From Sulfurimonas sp. HSL-1716 (GTDB lineage Bacteria > Campylobacterota > Campylobacteria > Campylobacterales > Sulfurimonadaceae), in assembly GCF_039645975.1 (NCBI RefSeq), contig NZ_CP147918.1, positions 1,674,001-1,738,000 on the forward strand: a DNA stretch of 64,000 nucleotides, in the 5' to 3' direction. The translations under genes were made by a program, and so were the position numbers. Below the pieces are notes generated by a model that was not told the origin of the DNA, did not search any database, and was given only the letters and a program-made list of their open reading frames with translations. How positions within the stretch are numbered: position 1 is the stretch's first letter; each line of letters begins with the position of its first letter. This document shows, one piece after another, positions 28,768-37,556 of this stretch.

Positions 28768-28860
28768 AAAGCGGTTTCCTTAATAATTCTTGTGTAAAAT
28801 TATATCTAATTAAAGATAGTTCTCGATACAATCCACATTATTGTTTAAAGTTTGGAATAT

Positions 28861-29511
28861 ATGACAAATAAAAAATTTAGCAACACTGATATCGTCCTTA
28901 TCGATATAATCGGTTTTTCGCACAACACGTCAAAAGAGCAGCTTGAGATCATTACCTATTTGACAAAAAGCTACTCCAAGATGATACGAACACTGCTGAA
29001 CAATTCGCAAATGAGCTTTAGTAAAATGATCGAAGGCATCGTCCCTACCGGCGACGGTTTTTACTGCATCTTAAATCCGAGGCTAAAAGGCTACGGAGTC
29101 ATACTCGGACTCAATTTTATCTATTTTTCAGAGATGATCATCAAAAGAAACAAAAAATTCACGGGAGTAAAAGTAGCAGTTCATGCGGGAGAGGTTTATC
29201 CGTTTACGGACATACTGGGGCACACGAACTTTATCGGTGACGGATTAAACGACTGTTCAAGATATCTGCAGATAAAAAATGTGAGTCCCTCGGCTCTCAT
29301 CGCTTCAAAAGCCGCTTTTGACTCGTTTGAAAAATTTTTGAGTTTTCATCCCGATTTTGAAGAGCTTATGATTGAAAGAGAACTAAAACGCAGCTCTTTA
29401 CAGGAATTTGAGGATAAACATGGTAAAATAAGGGCTACTTATCTCGTTTGGCTAAGACACTCTGGTATAATTAATCCGCCAAATACGAATTTCAACTCTC
29501 TTTTAATGTAA
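28861..29511 (+). CDS. class III nucleotide cyclase-like protein
   Basis: A 216-residue protein resembling a stand-alone class III adenylate/guanylate cyclase domain. VLIDIIGFS (first metal Asp, residue 15) matches F-x-D-I-x-G-F; PTGDGFYCIL (Asp about 65) matches G-D-G/A; AVHAGEVY matches the strand usually written G-I-H-x-G; and FIGDGLNDCSRYLQ keeps the N-x3-R pair (about 129-134). The purine-selecting Lys before GDG is Val here, so substrate or activity may differ. ATG 28861 with GGA 5-6 nt upstream is preferred over TTG 28852. It heads a run with a coiled-coil gene and fapA. Function unproven. Confidence 0.6.
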   Translation: MTNKKFSNTDIVLIDIIGFSHNTSKEQLEIITYLTKSYSKMIRTLLNNSQMSFSKMIEGIVPTGDGFYCILNPRLKGYGVILGLNFIYFSEMIIKRNKKFTGVKVAVHAGEVYPFTDILGHTNFIGDGLNDCSRYLQIKNVSPSALIASKAAFDSFEKFLSFHPDFEELMIERELKRSSLQEFEDKHGKIRATYLVWLRHSGIINPPNTNFNSLLM

Positions 29512-29520
29512 GGAACTAAA

Positions 29521-30207
29521 ATGCGTTTTACAATTGATGAATATTCAAAACAGTTTAAAATGTCCAAAGAGATGATAAACTCAAAACTGCGGTCTAAAAA
29601 ACTAAATTACATCATTGAAAACGGTACGACTTATATCATAGTGACACGAAGTTCGCTCGATCAGGAAAAAAGAGAAGAGATTCATCAGCACAACATGCAA
29701 AAAAAATCACAGGAAACAGCCTCGAACATAACCACTAAAAAAACGACGGTTGGCATGATCTTGTCGCTATATCAAAGAGAGAACGCTCAGCTTAAACAGA
29801 AGATAAAAGAGCTGGAAAAGAAGATAGACTCTCTTGTAGACGACAAAGAGCAGATGCTTAGGGATGAGAGAGACAGGATAGAGACTATCTATGCCTCAAA
29901 AGACGAACAGCTTAAAACCATACTCGAGCTTATCAATAAAAAATTCTTACTCGAACAAAAGACCGAGACCGTACATGAAGTAAGCCTTAGCGAACTTGAT
30001 ACGATAAATGCTTCTATCGACGACAATTTTTCATTTGTAGAACTGAAACATTATCTAAAGACATTGGACATAGAACCGTATCAAAGAAAGATCATCAAAA
30101 GACGATTTTTAGATGCAAGAGAGCATGACATACGAGTCATTGAGCAAAACGGAAAGATCTATCTGGATTTTGCGAAATATGACTATTCAGATCTCTTAAA
30201 GTACTAA
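29521..30207 (+). CDS. HTH-like N-terminus plus coiled-coil protein
   Basis: A 228-residue soluble protein. The first 45 residues (TIDEYSKQFKMSKEMINSKL...) look like a small MerR/excisionase-type helix-turn-helix. Residues about 75-135 are a long coiled coil (QRENAQLKQKIKELEKKIDS and on), and a compact C-terminal domain ends in YDYSDLLKY. It follows the cyclase-like gene by 9 nt and precedes fapA by 22 nt. DNA binding is plausible but unproven. Similar proteins seem limited to Campylobacterota as far as I can recall. A ribosome binding site AAGGAACTAAA stands before the ATG. Confidence 0.68.
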   Translation: MRFTIDEYSKQFKMSKEMINSKLRSKKLNYIIENGTTYIIVTRSSLDQEKREEIHQHNMQKKSQETASNITTKKTTVGMILSLYQRENAQLKQKIKELEKKIDSLVDDKEQMLRDERDRIETIYASKDEQLKTILELINKKFLLEQKTETVHEVSLSELDTINASIDDNFSFVELKHYLKTLDIEPYQRKIIKRRFLDAREHDIRVIEQNGKIYLDFAKYDYSDLLKY

Positions 30208-30229
30208 GATACCATTATTCAGAGAATAG

Positions 30230-31888
30230 ATGCAAAAACCGACACTAACAAGAAATATCGATTCCTTACTCAAAGAGTTTGCATCGGATAACTATACACC
30301 TCTCGACAGCTGTGATTTTAGTCTGGAGGGCACCGTCACATATGTAAAGTACCCCAGTGACGAAAGCTACACAAAAATACCGGATGATCATTATAAACAG
30401 TATTCACAAGATATAAACAATGTAGTAAAAGACAAGATAAACATCAACCAAGTCTATAAAATAACTCTGTTCATAGCACATGAATGTACCATAAAACTTG
30501 AATATAAGATCAATTTCGATGAGTTCAAAACACATCCCAAACTTATCGTTCTTCCGACATCGCATATTCCGTATAAAACGATAAAGCCCAAAGAGCTCTA
30601 TGTACTGTTGATAAGCGAACTCAACAAGATCAAAGCCAAAAACAGAATTCTTGTCAATTTCCATCATAACAAAATGCTTGAAGATCTTAAAAAGTTTGTC
30701 AGACATCTGTATGCGGGAAAATTTGTAAAACCTGTCAAAATACAGCTCTTTGAAGGGATAGAACCCGAACTTTCGATGCAGAGTTCCATAAATCTGATAT
30801 TTAAGAACAAAACCTCTCCCGATCATCAGCTCATAGAGGTCGATAAAGACGAGATCATTTTGGAATATAGAAAACCGATATACGGCTCCAATGGTTTTAA
30901 CTGCTATGGAAAACTGATAGAACACGGTGATCTCGAAGCAAAAAGTTTTGATCTGCAGATAGACGACGAATCTATATATACGGTTGAAAAAGACAACATG
31001 CTTATTTTAAAAAGCAGAAAAAAAGGTTTTGTGGATTATAACGACGGGAAGATCGCCGTCAGCAACGTCGTGAAAGTAAATAAGATAAACCGTATCCAAT
31101 CCAAGATAACAGACGATGAAGACAATGAGATAGAGGTAGTCGTCGCTCAAAACGATATAACAAGGGACAGCGTCGGGGAAGGTGCGGAGATCGTCTCCGA
31201 GCGTATACATATCAACGGTCATACAGGCAGTAAATCTTTGCTAGAAGCCACAGATCTCGTCATAGACGGAGCAACCCACAAAGACTCCAACATATTCGCA
31301 AAAAATGCAAAGATCAACAGACATAAAGGCACCTTAAGATGCAACAAAGCAGAGATAACACTTCTTGAAGGCGGTAAAGTACATGCATCTTATGCCGAAG
31401 TGGGAACTTGTCTTGGAGGAAGTATCTATGCCAGGGACGTGGTCATAGATCATGTCAAAAACAATGTCACCGTTTATGCTTCCAATTCGATAACGGTAAG
31501 GCTTGTCACCGGAGAAGACAACAGCTTTATCATCGACTACAGAAAGATTCCAGTCGTTACAAGTCAGATATCTTTAATAGATGCCGATATAGACGATCTG
31601 AAGTTCAAACTCGAAGATGCTCTAAAAAGTGACAACAACACCGCTGCATCCATAGAGGAGAAGATCGACGAGTTAAAACATGAAAAAGAGCAGATAATAA
31701 GCTCTTCGTTAAAGGCTTCTATCAGTATAAAGAATCCTCTGCGCGGTCTTAATATAATCAAATTCGTTTTCTCCGACAAAGATGAGATACTCTATAAAAC
31801 CTCCCCAAAACAGTACGAGAAATTTTATATCAAACTCGATGATGAAAAAGTAACACTTTATCCGGTAGGTGTCACAAAAAATATCTGA
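30230..31888 (+). CDS. FapA/DUF342 family protein
   Basis: A 552-residue cytoplasmic protein of the FapA (flagellar assembly protein A, DUF342) family. The middle part (about 225-430) is a right-handed parallel beta-helix rich in short beta repeats (VSERIHINGHTG, ATDLVIDGATHKDSNIFAKN, GGSIYARDVVIDHV), followed by a coiled coil (about 455-500) and a small end domain. FapA of Vibrio vulnificus helps the polar localisation of the flagellum, but DUF342 proteins vary in role. No membrane segment. Third gene of the trio that starts with the cyclase-like gene. Confidence 0.8.
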   Translation: MQKPTLTRNIDSLLKEFASDNYTPLDSCDFSLEGTVTYVKYPSDESYTKIPDDHYKQYSQDINNVVKDKININQVYKITLFIAHECTIKLEYKINFDEFKTHPKLIVLPTSHIPYKTIKPKELYVLLISELNKIKAKNRILVNFHHNKMLEDLKKFVRHLYAGKFVKPVKIQLFEGIEPELSMQSSINLIFKNKTSPDHQLIEVDKDEIILEYRKPIYGSNGFNCYGKLIEHGDLEAKSFDLQIDDESIYTVEKDNMLILKSRKKGFVDYNDGKIAVSNVVKVNKINRIQSKITDDEDNEIEVVVAQNDITRDSVGEGAEIVSERIHINGHTGSKSLLEATDLVIDGATHKDSNIFAKNAKINRHKGTLRCNKAEITLLEGGKVHASYAEVGTCLGGSIYARDVVIDHVKNNVTVYASNSITVRLVTGEDNSFIIDYRKIPVVTSQISLIDADIDDLKFKLEDALKSDNNTAASIEEKIDELKHEKEQIISSSLKASISIKNPLRGLNIIKFVFSDKDEILYKTSPKQYEKFYIKLDDEKVTLYPVGVTKNI

Positions 31889-32131: not shown

Positions 32132-32138
32132 AGTGGCT

Positions 32139-32381
32139 ATGGAAATCATCGATCTGTTTAATATTCTTCACAATGCCGTCGAAGCTCGGTACAACGGTAA
32201 AAAGATATCTCAAAAAGATATGGCTAAAAAATTAGGCATACCTATGAGAACATATCAGGACTGGAGGCTTGGAAATACAAAGCCTCAGGCCTCGGCAGCC
32301 GTTATCAAGATGTTAGGATATTTGGAAGACGATGAGATCATAAGAGTAGTCAGAAAAATAAATAAGCTTGGAGACAATTAA
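32139..32381 (+). CDS. small helix-turn-helix DNA-binding protein
   Basis: An 80-residue XRE/lambda-repressor-like protein. The HTH is ISQKDMAKKLGIPMRTYQDW followed by RLGNTKPQ, a typical recognition helix for a Cro/C1 fold. A GTG at 32133 would add two residues, but ATG 32139 lies 7 nt after TATAAT. The next gene starts 1 nt after its stop and uses GGAG inside this gene as ribosome binding site, so the two are one unit. Target unknown; it may regulate its own operon or the downstream HU gene. Confidence 0.75.
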   Translation: MEIIDLFNILHNAVEARYNGKKISQKDMAKKLGIPMRTYQDWRLGNTKPQASAAVIKMLGYLEDDEIIRVVRKINKLGDN

Positions 32382-33114: not shown

Positions 33115-34536
33115 ATGTTTTCCTCTCTCTTTTCAAATCTTTTTCCTAAAAACAAAAATTTGCTCAAAGTACCTGATTCCATATTGGTAAACAAAGTACA
33201 AGAGTGCGCACATGAAAATTCGCTTTATATTTTCAAAGACGCCAAGATCTTTCATCATGCGGATATACTGGATATTCCGCTGTTGGTCGTAGATCCTAAA
33301 AGAGGCATATATATCTTTGAGTATAAGACGTGGTGCTACAATGAGATAAAAAGCCTTAAAGCTGCCAAATCATCGCAGCAGGATTCTTCAAAAAACTCCC
33401 TTGCTTTTGAATCGAAACAAAAGTATATAAAAAGAAGGTTCAACGAGATTCTTAACAACGATGGAGCCGATATATTTAACTTCGTTCTGATGGAAAACCT
33501 TACAAAAGAGGAGTTTGAACGTCTCGACAGCTCATTTCATGAGTTGATACCTCAAAGCAGAACGCTTTTTAGTTCCGATTCCGTAAATGAGATCAAAGAG
33601 AAGCTCTTCGGTGTTTCTGACAAAAAACATGATATTTTAGATATCAATAGTATCATCTCGACTCTATTCGTCCAAAATACTATCATCTGTGAAGATCACT
33701 CCATACAGATAACCTCCGACGATCAAAATGCGATCATACGTCATGATTTTCGCGGTATAAACTTTATATCGGCAAAAGACTGTTCGGGAAAAACAAGCAC
33801 TATTCTTTTAAAAGCCGTATACGAGCACCTGCTGAACAAAGAAAAAAATATCTGTATTATTGAACCGACGAATATCGCTTGTGAACTTTTTAAGCAGAAA
33901 CTTTTATATCTGGTAGAGCACTCTATCGTCGAAGTCGACTTTTCAAAGATTTCGGTTATTACGACACATGATTTTAAAAATAAAAAAACGGACTATATTC
34001 TTGTAGACAATGCTTCAATGCTCAATAAAAGTTTTTTGGATTATCTGACAAGCCTGAAAAAAGATACTGTGATTTTTGAAAATCACGACGAATTAAAAAC
34101 ATACAGATTCTCATTAAACAACAACTACAGAGCTCAATCTACGATAGAGCTCTTAAACGGCAACCCATATGCTTTGACATTTGTGAATATACGAAGACTT
34201 TTAGAAAAAGGTGTTCTTCCTAAAGATATTCTCATAATAACTACAGAAGACGACGACAGATATAAAATTCTTGAAGATCTGCACTCTTTTGTCGAAGACG
34301 TACCAGTGATCTTAGATCCGTTTGAGACTATAAACAATCAGGAATTAGGCCATATCCTTATAGCCAACTACGATGAGATATTCGGTTTTTCAAGAGATTA
34401 TGTATTTATATTTGATCCTAAAGATATAGAGACGAATATCATAAATTTTATATTTTCAAGAGCCGGTAAAAAAACATTTGTAATATATGACCAAGACAAT
34501 AAGCTTATAGGAAAAATGGATGCAAAAGATATCTAA
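33115..34536 (+). CDS. NERD nuclease-like domain plus degenerate UvrD-type helicase
   Basis: A 473-residue protein. Residues about 20-130 look like a NERD (nuclease-related) domain: [23 protein letters not shown] matches its D...E-x-K core. Then come traces of an SF1 helicase in the right order: P-loop [11 protein letters not shown] (about 218-228, first Gly replaced by Ala), Walker B-like YILVDNAS (about 297; usual DE is DN), NNNYRAQS (about 335, UvrD motif N-Y-R-S) and [12 protein letters not shown] (motif VI-like). Loss of the Walker B Glu suggests weak or no ATPase. The end overlaps msrB by 17 nt. A role in DNA processing is inferred only. Confidence 0.6.
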
Positions 34537-35949: not shown

Positions 35950-36570
35950 TTATATCTTCTCTAGTATCTTTGTCAGATCTTTTGTATCGATTATGATCGT
36001 CGATTCTTTTTTAAGTATCTCTTTTGCACAAAACGCGACACGCGTACCTGCATGGGCAAACATTGACAGATCGTTCGCTCCGTCGCCCACGACCATCGTC
36101 TCCTCTTCGTTTACACCAAGCAGGTTCTGCAAACGTACCAGCATATCGCCTTTTGAAAAGTTAAACATCATATCACCGCCGACCAAGCCCGTCAATACAC
36201 CCTCTTTATGATGAAGCGCATTCGAGAAATCCGCATCATATCCGAGAATATCTTTCGCATACGTTGTAGCCGTTCTAAAACCACCGCTAAAGCAGACTAC
36301 TTTCATGCCGCGCTGTTTCAACTCTTTTATCGTTTCGACCGCACCGTTCATATATGGCAGCGAATGGCTGATCTCTTCGACTTTTTTATACGGAAGTCCT
36401 TTTAAAAGAGAAACTCTTTCTTGAAGACTTTCAAAAAAATCTATCTCGCCGTTCATGGCGCGTTCGGTAATAGTCGCGACTCTTTCTCCGATGCCGAGTT
36501 CCCTGGCAAAAAAGTCTATCGTCTCGCCATCCATCAATGTCGAATCAAAATCAAACACAGCTAACTTCAA
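35950..36570 (-). CDS. serB: phosphoserine phosphatase
   Basis: A 206-residue HAD-family phosphatase that makes L-serine from O-phosphoserine. The nucleophile motif is FDFDSTLMDGE at the N-terminus, motif II is CFSGGF near residue 93, and motif III/IV is VVGDGANDLSMF near 160. It is shorter than the ACT-domain form, as common in this phylum. The start is a TTG (36570) with only a weak GTGAG upstream; no in-frame ATG lies before the HAD motif. It is divergent from metF. Confidence 0.92.
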   Translation of the reverse strand: MKLAVFDFDSTLMDGETIDFFARELGIGERVATITERAMNGEIDFFESLQERVSLLKGLPYKKVEEISHSLPYMNGAVETIKELKQRGMKVVCFSGGFRTATTYAKDILGYDADFSNALHHKEGVLTGLVGGDMMFNFSKGDMLVRLQNLLGVNEEETMVVGDGANDLSMFAHAGTRVAFCAKEILKKESTIIIDTKDLTKILEKI

Positions 36571-36644
36571 ATTTCACTCACTTTAGTTATAATTACGCAA
36601 TTATACAATAGAGTTTGCCCAAACCTCTTATCTTAGGAATATAT

Positions 36645-37556
36645 TTGTTTACAGAGCTTTTAGATAAATTGAAAAATTCGACCTATATCACGCTTGAGAC
36701 TACACCAGGACACTCTCCAAGGTTCTCAACGGTGATAGAGCGTCTTGAATCTCTTGGACTCGCAGATCTTGTCGACGGATTCAGCACGACGGACAATCCT
36801 TTGGCAAAACTAAAATACAACTCTCTTTTTGCCGCAAAGATGCTTCAAGAGAGATTTAACAAACCCGTTATCGCAACGATGACTATGAGAGACAGAAACA
36901 TCATCGCCCTTCAGTCCGATCTGCTGGGTGCGAACGAAGCCGACATCAGAGCCATACTCGCTCTTACCGGTGACCCTGCAAAACTCTCCGATCAACCCCA
37001 TGTAAAAGGCGTCTTTGAGAGCGACAGCACCCTTTTGCTCGATATCATCTCATGCTTTAACTCCTCTATCGACTACGCAGGAAAACCTTTTAGCGTCAAG
37101 CCTGAGACCATCTACCCGTTTGGAGTAGTGAACTCCTATGCGAAAAATCCCAAGACACTCCAAAAAAAGATGCAGAAAAAACTGGCAAAAGGCGCTCTTG
37201 GTATCATTACCCAGCCGGTTTATGACACAGAAAATACGAAACTGCTTTTGGAACTGATGGAAAAAGCAAAAAAAGAGTGCTGTATCGAAGAAGCAGATGC
37301 GACGCTGATCCTCGGAATCTTTCCGATCACAAAACTCAGGACCGCACAGTTCTTGGCTTCGCATGTACCGGGCATCAACGTTCCCGACATCTGGATAGAA
37401 AAGCTCAGACGCGCAAACGAGATCTCTCCCCAAGAGGAGTATAAAGTGGGATTTGAACTGAGTAAAGAGCTTTTCGAATCGATAAAAGAGATACATCCGA
37501 AGATTCATCTGATGACGGCGAACCAGTTTGAGATCGCCAAAGAGATACTACTGTAA
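36645..37556 (+). CDS. metF: methylenetetrahydrofolate reductase-like protein
   Basis: About 303 residues of MTHFR-type TIM barrel. TYITLETTPGHSPRFSTVIE matches the N-terminal strand (catalytic Glu in LETTPG), IRAILALTGDPAKLSDQPH matches the flavin-binding LRGD region, and GALGIITQPVYD and LILGIFPI follow as in MetF. MTHFR makes 5-methyl-THF for methionine synthesis. The sequence is diverged from E. coli MetF and the family also contains relatives of other function. Start moved from TTG 36615 to TTG 36645, which has AGGA 5-6 nt upstream. It lies divergent to serB. Confidence 0.75.
   Translation: MFTELLDKLKNSTYITLETTPGHSPRFSTVIERLESLGLADLVDGFSTTDNPLAKLKYNSLFAAKMLQERFNKPVIATMTMRDRNIIALQSDLLGANEADIRAILALTGDPAKLSDQPHVKGVFESDSTLLLDIISCFNSSIDYAGKPFSVKPETIYPFGVVNSYAKNPKTLQKKMQKKLAKGALGIITQPVYDTENTKLLLELMEKAKKECCIEEADATLILGIFPITKLRTAQFLASHVPGINVPDIWIEKLRRANEISPQEEYKVGFELSKELFESIKEIHPKIHLMTANQFEIAKEILL

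Follow-up and report, generated by a model that had tools for sequence, protein, structure and literature searches.

What ties together three closely spaced genes of Sulfurimonas sp. HSL-1716 whose predicted products are a cyclase-like protein, a coiled-coil protein with a helix-turn-helix (HTH)-like N-terminus and a FapA-type protein? The genes, named g1, g2 and g3 here, lie in a stretch of 64,000 nt (positions 1,674,001 to 1,738,000 of NZ_CP147918.1, a single contig of 2,257,566 bases), which as a whole is called the window. A sequence-only reading had placed three plus-strand genes 9 and 22 nt apart at this site and taken them for a small signalling system. The open reading frames (ORFs) at 28861-31888 confirmed this layout, with gaps of 9 nt (g1-g2) and 22 nt (g2-g3):

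28861..29511, plus strand: g1, stand-alone class III-fold nucleotidyl cyclase-like protein, 216 aa, ATG start (an in-frame TTG lies upstream at 28852)
29521..30207, plus strand: g2, protein with a winged-helix-like N-terminus, a long helix and a C-terminal domain in its model, 228 aa
30230..31888, plus strand: g3, FapA-type (DUF342) protein, 552 aa

The reading that we put forward, with a probability of about one in three, is a Sulfurimonadaceae add-on round g2, in which g2 would be a DNA tether with an optional scaffold (g3) and an optional noncanonical cyclase (g1).

The cassette centres on g2, with g1 and g3 optional

We surveyed 228 genomes of the Sulfurimonadaceae, the family of these sulfur-oxidising bacteria. 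Matches to g2 were found in 203 genomes (E ≤ 1e-40; the count includes genera g50 and g51, whose weaker matches, E ~1e-52 to 1e-68, may not be orthologues), to g1 in 112 (remnants included) and to g3 in 86 (E ≤ 1e-80). Where both positions were among the matches listed, g1 and g2 were same-strand neighbours no more than 188 nt apart in 93 of 94 genomes (remnants included; the exception was a remnant at 316 nt), and g2 and g3 lay within 40 nt in 64 of 65, the exception being G244 with an interrupted g3. These adjacency counts leave out 17 of the 112 g1 genomes and 20 of the 86 g3 genomes, in which g2 was present and its position was not among the matches listed. G197, with g1, and G280, with g3, had no g2 match. 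Among the best 80 of 86 g1 loci, 78 had a full-length g2, which in those was the gene after g1; in some loci, e.g. L128 and L144, g2 overlapped the end of g1 by 11 nt.

Intact g1 and g3 were distributed independently of each other: 39 genomes had both, 68 had g1 only, 47 g3 only and 74 neither (odds ratio 0.90, p 0.78). In the 139 good genomes, the association was negative if anything (odds ratio 0.49, p 0.04). The intact counts drop five of the 112 g1 genomes, namely the remnants in G350, G167, G258 and G250 and a distant relative in G288; they retain G301, split between two contigs, and G197, with one stop, as well as G244 despite its interrupted g3. Because each of g1 and g3 adjoins g2 yet the two are not associated, and because g1 decays in place, leaving fragments in the four remnant genomes, g2 is the hub of the cassette, with g1 and g3 as optional neighbours independent of each other. 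An obligate three-gene pathway was rejected, since g1 and g3 were not positively associated. A g2 tree of 81 of the 203 genomes, hand-picked from those with listed positions, gave fewest changes of 15 for g1 and 10 for g3, with 30 of its 78 inner branches poorly supported; an independent-pairs test of g1 against g3 yielded six supported pairs, which was too few.

Conservation of the whole trio across the Campylobacterota, as the sequence-only reading had envisaged, was not seen. In a sample of 150 genomes of the phylum, g1 occurred in eight, one of them holding a remote relative, and a g2-family member in 47, with two copies only in the family of the window (10 of its 12 genomes). Genomes outside that family had at most one copy of the g2 paralogue and between none and three other FapA-type genes each, and one remote relative of g1 turned up among them; a phylum-wide cassette was therefore rejected. 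The sequence-only reading had named two findings that would undo it, genes that are not co-conserved and a first protein that lacks the cyclase fold. Neither fully applies: g1-g2 and g2-g3 are kept as neighbours although the trio is not obligate, and the g1 model shares the fold.

The three genes might also merely share a conserved site without having a function in common. In favour of this, conservation extends to other genes round the site, and the losses of g1 and g3 are independent of each other. The g1-g2 and g2-g3 adjacency, with overlaps in some species, argues against it, and the adjoining fba-like gene, by contrast, comes and goes between species (fba and the neighbour names nth, cmoA, hup, yajQ, serB and metF are presumed identities, recognised from sequence and not database results). 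We consider mere neighbourhood distinctly improbable. Comparison of the window with the related locus L052 gave nonsynonymous over synonymous divergence (dN/dS) of 0.048/1.38 for g1, 0.049/2.93 for g2 and 0.119/2.20 for g3; against L096 and L097, dS was saturated in five of six comparisons. All three genes look to be under purifying selection in the relatives compared. As dN was far below dS against L052 for all three and the gene order recurs in the family, the cassette is more than chance.

In the Faavne_M6_B10 metagenome-assembled genome, two copies of a cmoA-fba-g1-g2 locus lie on two contigs (L173 and L175). L175 has fragmented versions of fba, g1 and g2, and L173 a split fba and a shortened g1. 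The duplication may reflect a mixed bin or a decayed second strain.

g1 is predicted to be a class III cyclase with an unusual base site

For g1 we used an alignment (A6) of 64 rows, the window protein and 63 of the best 80 loci. An AlphaFold (AF2) model built on A6 without templates showed a class III cyclase fold, with a mean predicted local distance difference test score (pLDDT) of 91.5 and a predicted template modelling score (pTM) of 0.89. Its top Foldseek match in the PDB was the GC-A cyclase domain (3.8e-8), and all 50 matches listed were nucleotidyl cyclases; in VIA, it aligned with human soluble guanylate cyclase over 179 residues (Z 17.5, root-mean-square deviation 2.6). Judged by this model, g1 almost certainly has the class III cyclase fold, as had been proposed for a lone cyclase-like domain.

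Profile libraries scarcely recognised the family. The sole Pfam match of g1 was PF00211, sub-threshold at 16.1 bits against a cut-off of 21.9, and at E ≤ 0.01 this profile reached one of the 64 A6 sequences, the g1 of the window itself. A whole-genome PF00211 search at E ≤ 0.05 found the CHASE2 cyclase and missed g1. Scans of g1 with NCBIfam and PADLOC gave nothing useful, with no PADLOC family at E ≤ 1. The best sensible match in PDB sequence searches with the g1 profile was adenylyl cyclase 9 (E 0.087), and a larger profile returned no cyclase. Because a single member of 64 matches the Pfam cyclase model, and weakly, domain-based surveys would miss the g1 family.

The residues of interest in g1 are as follows:

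metal-binding Asp: D15 and D65
Asn-Arg pair: N130-x3-R134
Lys site: V61 (Ile or Val in homologues)
Asp/Thr site: N123

Class III cyclases specific for purines select ATP by a Lys together with an Asp or Thr, and GTP by a Glu together with a Cys or similar residue. In A6, D15, D65, N130 and R134 were each present in 64 of 64 sequences, as were Leu13 and Thr63. The place of the purine-selecting Lys (61, four before the second Asp) held Ile in 45 and Val in 19 sequences, and that of its Asp/Thr partner (123, seven before the Asn) held Asn in all 64, so the purine base-selecting pair was not found at these two places, which were assigned by offset from the second metal Asp and from the Asn. The offsets agree with those of the CHASE2 cyclase of the window genome, which has Lys and Thr there, and of Ma1120, with ATP-specifying K101 and D157, Asn place 164 and R168 (PMC4215837). 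The CTP enzyme EaPycC is described with base residues F100, R142 and Q144 and metal residues D102 and D146 (PMC11224242); at the matching offsets g1 has Leu13, Ile/Val61 and Thr63. As the residues of Ma1120, the CHASE2 cyclase and EaPycC all differ from those of g1 at matching offsets, g1 fits none of the base patterns that could be checked. The earlier observation that both metal Asp and the N-x3-R pair are kept while the purine-selecting Lys is lost thus held throughout A6, with a base site not of purine type; from this we infer that g1 may make an unusual nucleotide signal. Compared with class III nucleotidyl cyclases (PF00211; soluble guanylate cyclase, Rv1900c, CyaB), g1 shares the fold, the two metal Asp and Asn-x3-Arg, and differs in its Ile/Val and Asn at the base site, its stand-alone form and its score below the Pfam cut-off.

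Is g1 an active enzyme? It could be a cyclase fold that is silent as a catalyst and is retained to sense NTPs or to partner g2 in dimerisation: the Lys and Asp/Thr that usually contact the base are missing, the family has diverged beyond the reach of Pfam, and g1 is often lost. Against this, chance would leave D15, D65, N130 and R134 all invariant with a probability of ~0.001 given 38 invariant columns of 216 (a crude figure, with columns treated alike), and the distant relatives in G044 and G288 keep the same residues. We regard a silent fold as unlikely, though worth keeping in view; g1 is probably catalytically active, to judge from its sequence.

The two distant relatives, of 384 aa in G044 and 339 aa in G288, both carry I-P-T-G-D-G and the Asn; in g1 homologues, the second residue of this motif is P or S. 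This hints at a wider cyclase group with the signature I-[PS]-T-G-D-G ... N-x6-N-x3-R. In G044 (L061, contig C6, 4470-6217), a ThsB-like TIR gene (PF08937, 1.3e-15) immediately precedes the relative, and a DUF2779 gene, an HD gene and CRISPR genes (Cas6, Cas8b) follow downstream, so that the wider group may have a defence setting here.

A Pycsar-like anti-phage role for g1 was also weighed. The class III fold and noncanonical base contacts are common to g1 and PycC, the Anabaena uridylate cyclase 8jsz stood at Foldseek rank 25, the G288 relative matched PycC models weakly (best 1.4e-4), and the G044 relative has the TIR gene beside it. However, g1 lacked a PADLOC match although PycC models are in that library, and these models are not specific, since they also match an ordinary CHASE2 cyclase (2.6e-28); on these grounds a Pycsar identity was rejected. 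No receptor effector adjoins g1, the next gene being g2 in 78 of 80 loci (with upstream genes profile-scanned in some of these loci). In addition, g1 keeps to one syntenic chromosomal place, and its Leu, Ile/Val and Thr are unlike the base-site residues F100, R142 and Q144 of EaPycC. Such a role is very improbable.

g2 combines a winged-helix-like N-terminus with a long helix in its model

The g2 alignment (A7) had 51 rows, the window protein and 50 of the 78 full-length g2. The g2 model (mean pLDDT 83.8) runs as strand-helix-helix-hairpin at 2-40, a helix at 77-148, which is probably a coiled coil, and strand-helix-helix-hairpin again at 172-216. In VIA, residues 1-49 aligned at low Z with the winged helices of phage Xis (5.8), BldC (5.2), MerR proteins (~4) and pSK1 Par (4.0), which is suggestive only of a winged-helix-like N-terminus. 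The HTH-like N-terminus of the sequence-only reading is thus present in the model, as is a long helix where that reading had a coiled coil. In these two features g2 may resemble RacA, pSK1 Par and RocS, DNA tethers that combine a winged helix with a coiled coil; it differs from them in that its C-terminal domain is ordered in the model and repeats the winged-helix-like order of elements. A PDB sequence search with the g2 profile showed no homology to RacA-, pSK1 Par- or RocS-type tethers. RacA was absent among the structure matches listed, an absence that carries no weight.

A shorter paralogue of g2, with 35% identity to it, lies elsewhere in the window genome. All eight g2 paralogues scanned matched HTH_17 at E ≤ 0.1, three of them over the cut-off. 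DUF3972 (PF13118) matched g2 at 17.3 bits, below its cut-off of 26.2, and 17 of 51 A7 rows at E ≤ 0.05; it was rejected as a name for g2 and its paralogue, the latter in the window genome giving no match at E ≤ 0.1.

These matches bear on whether g2 is an ordinary MerR/Xis-type transcription regulator, with g1 or its product as co-regulator and g3 as a nearby target. The winged-helix-like region and the HTH_17 matches of the paralogous family speak for a regulator. The helix of ~70 residues and the lack of a recognisable ligand domain speak against one, as a long helix without a ligand domain is unlike classical MerR regulators. We hold a regulator to be unlikely, but a serious contender.

In some genomes, a yajQ-like gene adjoins the g2 paralogue or lies not far from it. 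Because the neighbourhood holds mixed genes, nothing was drawn from this proximity, and a yajQ link was rejected. In G061, G063 and G105, the yajQ-like gene comes after a single-copy winged-helix/coiled-coil gene, with one gene between. In five loci of other Campylobacterota (L178, L179, L181, L183 and L186), a single-copy gene of this kind precedes a lipoprotein-like gene and a gene of 391-393 aa, and follows a 74-aa gene in four of the five.

g3 is predicted to be a shortened FapA paralogue

FapA_N matched g3 with an E of 4.3e-6 and 26.7 bits, just below the cut-off of 27.0, and all six members of the g3 alignment (A3) at E ≤ 0.01. Two FapA-type genes were found in the window genome, g3 and a longer FapA (G000:C1:1277354-1278784) with 26% identity to g3 over the alignment. 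These matches fit the earlier call of a DUF342 protein. g3 aligns full length with the longer FapA, lacking an internal stretch of ~52 alignment columns that is probably coiled coil, and forms a group of its own by profile score. Read from sequence, g3 is a shortened FapA paralogue, set apart also by adjoining g2. A PDB sequence search with the g3 profile gave no useful match.

Where g3 is missing, some genomes (e.g. G143, G133 and G060) carry a different second FapA-type gene at another place. The divergent one of G060, a genome without a g2 match, encodes 604 aa (L065, contig C14, 3215-5029) and is closely followed by homologues of two genes of the window, 35950-36570 and 36615-37556; in the window, these two are found ~4 kb downstream of the cassette. 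In G244 (L191, C1:1788500-1796000), g3 is split by an insert of ~2.5-3 kb carrying minus-strand ORFs of 134, 200 and 364 aa, with g1 and g2 intact.

g3 is found in genomes with flhA

The flagellar marker flhA (PF00771) was present in 198 of the 228 genomes; as a single marker, with many genomes being drafts, it gives weak evidence. g3 occurred in 86 of the 198 flhA-positive and none of the 30 flhA-negative genomes (good genomes, 62/126 vs 0/13). Intact g1 occurred in 99 of 198 and 8 of 30 (good genomes, 70/126 vs 2/13); it was rarer without flhA (p 0.02 in all, 0.007 in good genomes), yet not absent, and these p values overstate the case because genera g50 and g51 account for half of the 30 flhA-negative genomes. 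Such a pattern would fit a role for g3 at the flagellated pole, with g1-g2 independent of it.

The sequence-only reading had suggested polar or flagellar placement. The absence of g3 from all flhA-negative genomes fits that part; the lineages are not independent, and g1 persists in eight of the 30. A flagellar placement system proper would suit the FapA kinship of g3 and explain its restriction to flhA-positive genomes, but it sits badly with g1 in flhA-negative ones and with the 112 of 198 flhA-positive genomes that lack g3. Moreover, no flagellar gene was recognised by eye among the neighbours, where no search aimed at flagellar genes was made. We judge this explanation improbable.

Proposed mechanism

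We propose that g2 would bind DNA through its predicted winged helix, possibly with a second one at the C-terminus, and oligomerise through the coiled coil, by analogy with the chromosome and plasmid tethers RacA and pSK1 Par, which are described as sharing a MerR-type winged helix and a coiled coil (PMC11500499). g3 may be a polar or envelope scaffold to which g2 attaches in flagellated species; in Vibrio vulnificus, HubP is reported to recruit FapA to the cell pole (PMC12918733). g1 would turn an NTP into a cyclic nucleotide, the NTP being chosen by base contacts other than those of known ATP and GTP cyclases, and its product may tune the g2-g3 attachment, either by acting on g2 directly or via a cyclic nucleotide-binding domain (CNBD) protein of the genome. 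In the window genome, four CNBD proteins score over the cut-off, and the CHASE2 protein is the one canonical cyclase. CNBD proteins were found in 226 of the 228 genomes, and a survey of them has no power because they are near universal.

Several results weigh against this tether reading. The g2 model has a pTM of 0.32, and the likeness of its N- and C-terminal parts lies in DSSP element order alone. The top VIA rows of g2 were coiled-coil matches to unrelated proteins, with Z of 6.5 and less, and Foldseek gave no match at E ≤ 0.001. The independence of g1 and g3 also counts here, as does the phylogenetic confounding of the flhA association of g3, since g50 and g51 supply 15 of the 30 flhA-negative genomes. 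Genus g5 had no g3 in 29 good genomes, 26 of them flhA-positive. Finally, G349 has an intact g1 and no CNBD match; a CNBD receptor for the g1 product therefore seems possible, but not obligatory.

Surroundings of the cassette

The cassette keeps to one syntenic place, flanked on one side by cmoA, which fba joins in some species, and on the other by the XRE and hup genes. The first of the latter two is as follows:

32133..32381, plus strand: XRE-type HTH gene, not counted in the module

It was left out because it is present in relatives with or without g1 or g3. A scan for promoters found 22 sites where shuffles gave 15.3, and one for terminators found 5 where they gave 2.7; no site was convincing. 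Beside an HU-like gene, window positions 33115-34536 encode a fast-changing protein with weak AAA_19 and NERD matches and 26-75% identity to relatives at the same place.

Significance

We found no description of this cassette in the open-licence PMC literature on FapA/DUF342 (including FapH and Helicobacter), DUF3972, pyrimidine cyclases, YajQ, Sulfurimonas adenylate cyclase, class III specificity and winged-helix partition proteins. A bolder proposal is that g1 founds a class of housekeeping, non-defence cyclases whose product is neither cAMP nor cGMP and which control the tie of the chromosome to a FapA-type polar scaffold through a DNA-binding coiled-coil protein. We rate it a long shot; if it were true, the relatives in G044 and G288 that share the signature would mark a larger unrecognised group.

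A survey of the Campylobacterota is described as having used PF00211 and PF01295 as queries, with CHASE2 in all adenylate cyclases found; adenylate cyclases were reported in 21% of species and CRP-like proteins in 86% (PMC9239204). Because PF00211 hardly reaches the g1 family, which is present in 112 of 228 genomes of the window's family (remnants included), a possible source of cyclic nucleotides may have been overlooked there. If g1 is active, some of the CRP-like proteins of these bacteria could have a ligand after all. The g2-g3 pairing also offers a way into the poorly known FapA scaffolds.

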